Source: Phycicoccus sp. M110.8
Lineage (GTDB): Bacteria > Actinomycetota > Actinomycetes > Actinomycetales > Dermatophilaceae
NCBI RefSeq assembly: GCF_032464895.1
Contig: NZ_JAWDIC010000001.1
Span: 1-64,000 of the forward strand
Length of the DNA stretch: 64,000 nt
Reading direction: 5' to 3'
How positions within the stretch are numbered: the first letter of the stretch is position 1; each line of letters opens with the position of its first letter. Below, in pieces: positions 11,398-12,952 of this stretch. The notes under the pieces were generated by a model. It was not told the origin of the DNA. It saw only the letters and a program-made list of their open reading frames with translations, and ran no database searches. The position numbers and the translations under genes are program-made.

Positions 11398-12545
11398 GTC
11401 GAGTAGGCCGAGTTCTCGTGGACGTAGTCGTGGGTGAGGTCGTTGGTCCAGATCGTCGCGGCCTGCGCGCCCGCGTGCAGGTCGACGAGCACGTGCACCT
11501 CCCGGCCGGTGAGGTCCACGAGGGACCGGTCCTCACCGACGCCACCGGACCGGCACACCTGCACACCGTTGATGGCGACGTCGAGCTGATTCGGCTCGAA
11601 CGCCGCGCGCGTGGTGCCGACCGCGGCGAGCACGCGTCCCCAGTTGGGGTCGTTGCCGAAGACCGCGCACTTGAACAGGTTGTTGCGGGCGATGGAGCGC
11701 CCGACCTCGAGGGCGTCGTCGACCGAGGCGGCGCCGACCACCTCCACTGCGATGTCGTGGTGGGCGCCCTCGGCGTCGCCGATGAGCTGCCGCGCCAGCG
11801 AGGCGCACACCTCGGTGACGGCGTCGGCGAGCTCCTCGGTCGAGGGCCGCACCCCGGAGGCCCCGGACGCCATGAGCAGCACGGTGTCGTTGGTCGACTG
11901 GCACCCGTCGGAGTCGACCCGGTCGAAGCTGACGGCCGTGGCGGCACGGAGCACGCCGTCGAGCTCGCCCGGCTCGACCACCGCGTCGGTCGTCACCACG
12001 ACCAGCATCGTCGCCAGGGCGGGGGCGAGCATCCCCGCCCCCTTGGCCATGCCCCCGACGGACCAGCCGTCGCCTGCAGCGGTGGCCTGCTTGTGCACCG
12101 TGTCCGTCGTCTTGATGGCGACCGCAGCGTCGTCCCCGCCGTCGGCGGCGAGGGCAGCAGCTGCGGCGTCGACGCCGGCCAGCACCTTGGCCATCGGCAG
12201 CAGCTCGCCGATGAGGCCGGTCGAGCAGACGACGACGTCGCCGGCGGAGATGCCCAGCGCCCCGGCGACGTGCTCGGCCGTGGCGTGCGTGTCGGCGAAG
12301 CCCTGGGGCCCGGTGCACGCGTTCGCGCCGCCGGAGTTGAGGACCACCGCGTCCGCCCGACCGTCGCTGACGACCTGCCGGGACCACGTCACGGGTGCCG
12401 CCTCGACCCGGTTGCTCGTGAAGACCGCGGCGGCGTGGTGGGTGGGCCCGTCGTTGACCACGAGCGCGAGGTCGGGGGCGCCCGACGCCTTGAGCCCTGC
12501 GGTGACACCGGCCGCGCGGAAGCCCCGAGGAGCCGTGACGCTCAC
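11394..12545 (-). CDS. argJ: Bifunctional ornithine acetyltransferase / N-acetylglutamate synthase
   Basis: Recycles the acetyl group from N-acetylornithine to glutamate. As a self-processing Ntn-type hydrolase it cuts itself before the Thr of [16 protein letters not shown], which is intact here near residue 180. FGNDPNWGR near the C-terminus is also family-typical. 383 residues from GTG at 12545; the start overlaps the stop of the ACT gene (GTGA). Presence of argJ means the cyclic acetyl pathway is used. Confidence 0.95.
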
Positions 12546-12952
12546 GACGCGCCCCCGGACAGCCGGGCCGGAGCGGCCGTGTTCCCGTCGCGCTTCCACA
12601 GCGCCATCGCCTCGTCGGCGTGCTGGGCGTCGACGAGGATCCAGTCGGTGTCGAAGGTCGACATCGCCAGGATGCTGATCCCCTGGGTGGCCAGCGGGTC
12701 GAGCAGGCCGGCGAGCACCCCGACGGTGGAGAAGTCGAGCGGGCCGGCGATCTCGAACGCCGTCAGCGGCCCCTGGGCGCGAGCGCCCGCAGGGACGGCG
12801 TCGTGCGCGCACACGACCGAGGTCTCGCTGTCGGTGTAGGTGACGGACGCGAGCGGACCGGTCCGCCAGTCGAAGTCCGGCTCGGTCCCGGCCGGCAGGC
12901 GGACGAACGCCACCTCGACCGCGTGCCTCATCAGGTGCAGGGGCAGACTCAT
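12542..12952 (-). CDS. ACT-domain protein of the CASTOR-like (ACT_7) type, inside the arg operon
   Basis: A 136-residue protein with tandem ACT-like halves. The second half contains [16 protein letters not shown] (residues 69-84) and [11 protein letters not shown] (98-108), which are hallmarks of the ACT_7/CASTOR-type amino-acid-binding family; the first half includes [11 protein letters not shown] (residues 44-54). ACT domains bind amino acids at subunit interfaces, and human CASTOR1, built from the same domain type, senses arginine. The gene overlaps both argC (ATGA) and argJ (GTGA) and is therefore translated with the pathway. I infer a role in sensing arginine or a related amino acid; no catalytic domain is attached. 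Function is not proven by sequence. Confidence 0.85.

Follow-up and report, generated by a model that had tools for sequence, protein, structure and literature searches.

What does a small ACT-domain protein do between two enzyme genes of an arginine operon? The question is raised by a 64,000-nucleotide stretch of Phycicoccus sp. M110.8 (contig NZ_JAWDIC010000001.1, positions 1 to 64,000), referred to here as the window, in which a short open reading frame (ORF) lies between argC and argJ. We call this gene and its product ACT7. A preliminary description of the window proposed it as a candidate arginine sensor related to animal CASTOR1. The reading developed below, to which we assign a probability of about one half, is that ACT7 is an amino acid sensor equivalent to half of CASTOR1, probably coregulated by ArgR, that may tune arginine synthesis through a putative ligand and target.

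A Half-CASTOR Protein Encoded in an Arginine Operon

12542..12952, minus strand: ACT7, a 136-residue tandem-ACT protein (ACT_7; half-CASTOR, Atu0741-like), recognized by profile, PDB search and predicted fold

The ACT7 ORF begins with ATG and has the stop-start overlaps given in the preliminary description; it shares four nucleotides at each junction with its neighbors: its start with the argC stop (ATGA, 12949–12952) and its stop with the argJ start (GTGA, 12542–12545). The Pfam ACT_7 profile (PF13840) scores 57.7 bits against a gathering cutoff of 27, which places the protein in that family, and the profile is matched by 106/106 proteins of alignment A2 at E ≤ 0.01. The A9CJY8-like N-terminal domain (PF21631) reaches 19 bits in the window protein against a cutoff of 27 (E 9.6e-4) and is matched by 94 of the 106 relatives at E ≤ 0.01. 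The predicted structure (predicted local distance difference test score, pLDDT, 90.8) is nearest in fold to PDB entries 1zhv and 1zvp and then to one half of CASTOR1, with which the aspartate-kinase ACT domains are tied. A PDB sequence search retrieved 1zhv at E 1e-14; the matches to human CASTOR1/2 start at 3e-6. The two motifs singled out earlier as CASTOR-type match ACT domains 2 and 4 of CASTOR1 in the alignment. Profile score and predicted fold thus agree on a stand-alone ACT_7/CASTOR-type protein, and a chance match or a wrong reading frame is ruled out by conservation and fold. With the 1zhv fold and a length near the ∼130 residues typical of the group, ACT7 belongs to the A9CJY8-like (Atu0741) stand-alone family; as a single half, it lacks the four ACT domains per chain that define CASTOR proteins. 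Its nearest named relatives, within the named genome collection, come from Knoellia, Phycicoccus, and Pedococcus. A second ACT_7 match in the window genome (C1:2065434) presumably belongs to its aspartate kinase.

Each of the known systems differs from ACT7 in some respect. Atu0741 of Agrobacterium (1zhv; Pfam A9CJY8-like_N plus ACT_7), known here from a structural-genomics title alone, has glycine at the position of S93, His at W104, and Leu at W119. VC0802 (1zvp), of unknown function by its title, is a weak sequence match (E 0.77). CASTOR1 and CASTOR2, the animal mTORC1 arginine sensor, are twice as long as ACT7, which is encoded in a biosynthetic operon and carries threonine in place of CASTOR1 F303; a GATOR2/mTORC1 complex is not known from bacteria. 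The regulatory ACT domains of aspartate kinases, which bind lysine or threonine, are fused to the kinase, whereas ACT7 is a free protein, and no aspartate kinase appeared among its PDB sequence matches at E ≤ 1.

Distribution and Operon Position

ACT7 is present in 17 of 39 relatives' genomes and occupies the slot between argC and argJ in all 17. In a class-level sample, a homologue was found in 49 of 296 genomes; 30 loci were retrieved: 17, counting that of the window, sit in the argC–argJ slot, and 13 are not arg-linked. The 19 weaker class-level matches fall outside the 30-locus set; by their coordinates, ten of these are on a contig other than that of ArgJ, which in draft genomes is not proof of distance, and one of the 19 genomes lacks an ArgJ match among those listed. 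A named genome collection, scanned with two peptide motifs from arg-linked proteins and therefore favoring arg-linked copies, gave 119 relatives, of which 80 were kept: 76 sit between argC and argJ, all in Actinomycetota by title, and the other four, outside an arg operon, are from Bryobacteraceae, Caenispirillum, Acidobacteria, and Solibacter. Across all sets, 108 of 125 classified loci are arg-linked, representing 92 distinct proteins (species may recur across sets), and neither argC nor argJ occurs in the 3–8 kb fetched for 17 more distant homologues. Every fetched locus holding both argC and argJ has ACT7 between them. This fixed location across lineages marks a dedicated arginine-operon gene, and the link is real, recurrent, and position-specific. 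The survey of arg operons called for in the preliminary description bears out the operon link, and the scatter of homologues without arg genes that it named as counterevidence is not seen for the arg-operon branch.

Among the 92 distinct arg-linked proteins, the gene has a 4-nt overlap with argC in 77, with argJ in 68, and with both in 55, and none of the 108 arg-linked loci has ACT7 fused to an arg enzyme. Beyond the branch of the window protein, ACT7 is retained across several families at mostly 34–50% identity, and its G, P, W, and T-D positions hardly vary. In the protein tree, the arg-linked (92) and unlinked (14) proteins split on one branch with weak to modest support (81/65), which fits a single entry of ACT7 into the arginine operon without proving it. 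Three homologues (L046, L047, L048; one actinomycete family, f47), excluded from alignment A2, the tree, and the counts, join an ACT7-like domain to a GNAT acetyltransferase-like domain in a single protein of 287–293 residues; their genes adjoin one for a GTP-binding elongation-factor-like protein (GNAT domain and neighbor named by eye).

Among the matches listed from the open-licence literature, none describes an ACT7-type gene in arginine operons, as judged for most of them by title and the opening of the abstract. None of the papers joins "ACT domain-containing protein" with "arginine biosynthesis operon", or Nocardioides with arginine biosynthesis and ACT domain, and none of those rich in arg-operon terms contains "ACT domain".

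Patchy Presence and Decay

Is ACT7 indispensable where it could occur? In one genus, taken as Nocardioides by tree placement, it was matched in 66 of 118 genomes, two of the 66 having fragments only. Thirty genomes of this genus were checked for argJ and 28 yielded one: five loci have a divergent ArgJ without upstream argC, two hold a decayed ACT7, and in 21 the gene is gone. In these 21, the argC–argJ junction is a 4-nt overlap in 11, a 1-nt overlap in 6, and a gap of 5, 52, 55, or 118 nt in the other 4. A further 16 ACT7-less loci, with argJ starts set by alignment to the window ArgJ and two ACT7-bearing controls behaving as expected, show 4-nt overlaps in 13, a 1-nt overlap in one, and gaps of 62 or 76 nt in two. 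In the five divergent loci (L171–L175, from G364, G341, G376, G337, and G327), the best ArgJ has 36–39% identity and no argC lies directly upstream, which suggests that they carry a different ArgJ-like gene.

The decayed arg-operon copies are in L148 (G371) and L152 (G348); one has lost an internal segment covering the ligand loop and helix, and the other has a frame break. On an ArgC+ArgJ tree of 129 rows (90 with ACT7, 37 without, 2 decayed), presence requires 17 changes, at least nine of them forced by starred branches (quick method; Shimodaira–Hasegawa-like approximate likelihood ratio test, SH-aLRT, only). Because decayed copies are found, we infer that the changes were mostly losses. ACT7 is a dispensable, optional module.

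Such a record would fit a passenger, an inserted ACT_7 gene of little effect in the operon, and its divergence, faster than that of ArgC/ArgJ (median ratio 1.8, 43 rows), points the same way. The retention of the protein and its near-invariant positions across several families argues otherwise, and both decayed copies come from the single genus searched for them; we consider a passenger very improbable.

The Ligand Pocket and the Candidate Target

If ACT7 is a sensor, does its pocket speak for arginine? CASTOR1 binds arginine at the interface of its ACT2 and ACT4 domains. Structural work on CASTOR1 shows D304 and main-chain groups holding the arginine guanidinium and S111 and V112 the amino end (PMC5187391). 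Isothermal titration calorimetry (ITC) results from another study give no measurable binding for L273A, F275A, I280A, S111A, and D304L (PMC5020642), whereas S111A was merely weakened according to the former (PMC5187391). The window protein has L72, F74, V79, S93, and D103 at the positions of L273, F275, I280, S111, and D304. It is identical to CASTOR1 at L72, F74, S93, D103, and L95 (CASTOR1 L113), that is, at 5/9 pocket positions, compared with 18/43 and 13/32 identities across the domain alignments.

At the five critical positions, 48 of 92 arg-linked proteins and 6 of 14 unlinked ones have only identical or conservative residues; at S93, 61 of the 92 carry serine and 17 carry proline. Mean pocket identity to CASTOR1 hardly differs between arg-linked (4.24/9) and unlinked (4.00/9) proteins, and D103 is kept in 85/92 of the former and 14/14 of the latter. 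The pocket is thus a family trait and by itself no mark of an arginine sensor. In the pocket comparison called for in the preliminary description, the window protein resembles CASTOR1, S93 and D103 included, and an arginine pocket specific to arg-linked copies is unsupported. Nor did a candidate target emerge. The relative divergence of ArgC (p 0.39), ArgJ (0.10), ArgB (0.81), and ArgD (0.16) shows no difference between 24 ACT7-less and 37 ACT7-bearing loci (one of 38 bearing rows was dropped, being without full ArgD). Absence of ACT7 thus leaves no visible trace in these four enzymes, and a target could not be identified from relaxed constraint.

In one alternative, ACT7 senses an amino acid that does not belong to the arginine pathway, such as a nitrogen-status signal, and ties arginine synthesis to general nitrogen or carbon supply. 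The family-wide pocket, not specific to arginine, favors it, as do other actinomycete ACT proteins that reportedly respond to asparagine or cysteine, although these are of a different ACT kind with a DXPGXL motif (PMC6434083). No specific alternative ligand is indicated, however, and the invariable position between argC and argJ is against it; we regard this alternative as possible but rather unlikely. Arginine sensing remains plausible, with operon position as its main support. The strongest version, in which the half-CASTOR1 protein is a true arginine sensor that gives the pathway feedback at the protein level alongside ArgR and ArgB, and CASTOR a duplicated form of a bacterial module already serving arginine, seems to us unlikely.

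What does distinguish the arg-linked proteins is a set of tryptophans: W104 in 91/92 versus 4/14 unlinked proteins, W119 in 90/92 versus 3/14, and W27 in 90/92 versus 4/14 (F27 in the window protein). These near-invariant residues could form a partner surface. All three are retained in the seven arg-linked proteins without D103, which all fall among Nocardioidaceae (five so placed by tree; L123 has glutamate). In these seven, ACT7 diverges more on average relative to ArgC+ArgJ, with ratios of 1.8–3.2 against a median of 1.8 and a range of 1.4–3.1 in the 43 relatives (Mann–Whitney p 1e-4, with rows not independent), and in one, L074, the ratio is not above the median. On the ArgC+ArgJ tree, two D103-less rows lie near decayed copies, L039 as the sister of the frame-broken one and L043 in a group with the one carrying the internal deletion. 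These data hint that D103 matters and are consistent with decay setting in once the ligand site had been lost, but general relaxation would leave a similar pattern.

Tryptophans that outlast D103 also suit a protein that senses nothing, namely an accessory subunit of ArgC or ArgJ, or a factor in their assembly, made in stoichiometric amounts through translational coupling, as do the fixed argC–argJ position and the stop-start overlaps. Yet many genomes lack ACT7 with the constraint on ArgC and ArgJ unchanged, and argC and argJ overlap directly in most ACT7-less loci examined, which makes such a role, in our estimate, distinctly improbable.

ArgR and the Surrounding Operon

Could ACT7 replace the repressor ArgR? 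ArgR was found in 17/17 arg-linked genomes of the class sample, which rules out replacement and agrees with the earlier proposal that ACT7 acts in addition to ArgR. The minus-strand gene order is pheS, pheT, a short-chain dehydrogenase gene, argC, ACT7, argJ, argB, argD, argF, argR, and argH, with operon names assigned by eye except for family matches of argJ (PF01960) and argR (Arg_repressor):

13991..14030, no strand assigned: cluster of three ArgR-box-like palindromes (TGCATNNNNATGCA, 1–2 mismatches) over the argC start, from a pattern scan
12949..14001, minus strand: argC, 4-nt overlap with ACT7
11394..12545, minus strand: argJ, GTG start over the ACT7 stop, PF01960 match at 11397–12518
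10438..11397, minus strand: argB-like N-acetylglutamate kinase, named by eye, with 50 residues ahead of the VVKYGG motif
9218..10438, minus strand: argD-like, 406 residues, by eye, starting at MGTHNDELL within the longer ORF 9218–10672
8283..9221, minus strand: argF-like ornithine carbamoyltransferase, by eye, the C-terminal part of ORF 8283–10334, from the GTG of VTLRHFL
8027..8224, minus strand: argR, region matching the Arg_repressor family (E 5.3e-23)
6300..7724, minus strand: argH-like argininosuccinate lyase, by eye

The true argC start is probably an in-frame ATG near 13989 (MRRVAVAG). The short-chain dehydrogenase-like gene (14070–14801, minus strand, named by eye) lies between pheT and argC.

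The palindrome pattern, modeled on an ArgR-box consensus, was picked after the region had been seen. The window holds nine matches at ≤2 mismatches, a total not above chance (shuffle mean 5.6; ≥9 in 10/100 shuffles), of which the three named above cluster. A match near the argC start recurs in 18/18 relatives, with one mismatch in 15 and two in 3, beginning 3–29 bases 5' of the point where the argC match starts; controls equaled this result in 0–5% of same-stretch shuffles and 0.5–8% of random stretches from the same locus. These 18 were drawn from the 80 named loci and all belong to the branch that holds the window protein (L065 and L068 of that branch left out; no Nocardioides). ACT7 thus comes on top of ArgR and, given these putative sites, is probably under its control. 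An N-terminal extension on ArgB is a mark of arginine-sensitive enzymes, and from the 50-residue extension seen here, classical feedback on ArgB is probably present as well.

A Model for ACT7 and Its Implications

How might these parts work together? Computation supports the fold, the place in the operon, the overlapping junctions, the ArgR-box-like site, the company of ArgR, and the patchy record with its decayed copies. We infer the ACT7 dimer, its ligand, its target, and the direction of its effect, and the resulting model is as follows. ACT7 would be a stand-alone regulatory protein whose two tandem ACT-like units correspond to one CASTOR1 half and bind an amino acid; it would be coproduced with the enzymes of the pathway, probably under ArgR control. 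Two copies would pair, their STFxTD loops forming two CASTOR1-like pockets, each of which may take up a pathway amino acid, with arginine the first candidate and ornithine or another next. A ligand-driven change could then shift contact with a neighboring pathway protein (ArgC, ArgJ, or ArgB), adjusting flux as an optional layer over ArgR and ArgB feedback.

The occurrence of close species with and without ACT7 makes the question directly testable. If arginine is sensed, the CASTOR fold would have the same job in bacteria, and an uncharacterized ACT family would gain a function. ACT7 would also offer a simple model for how such sensors gain targets and would add an extra regulatory layer to an actinomycete pathway considered well understood.
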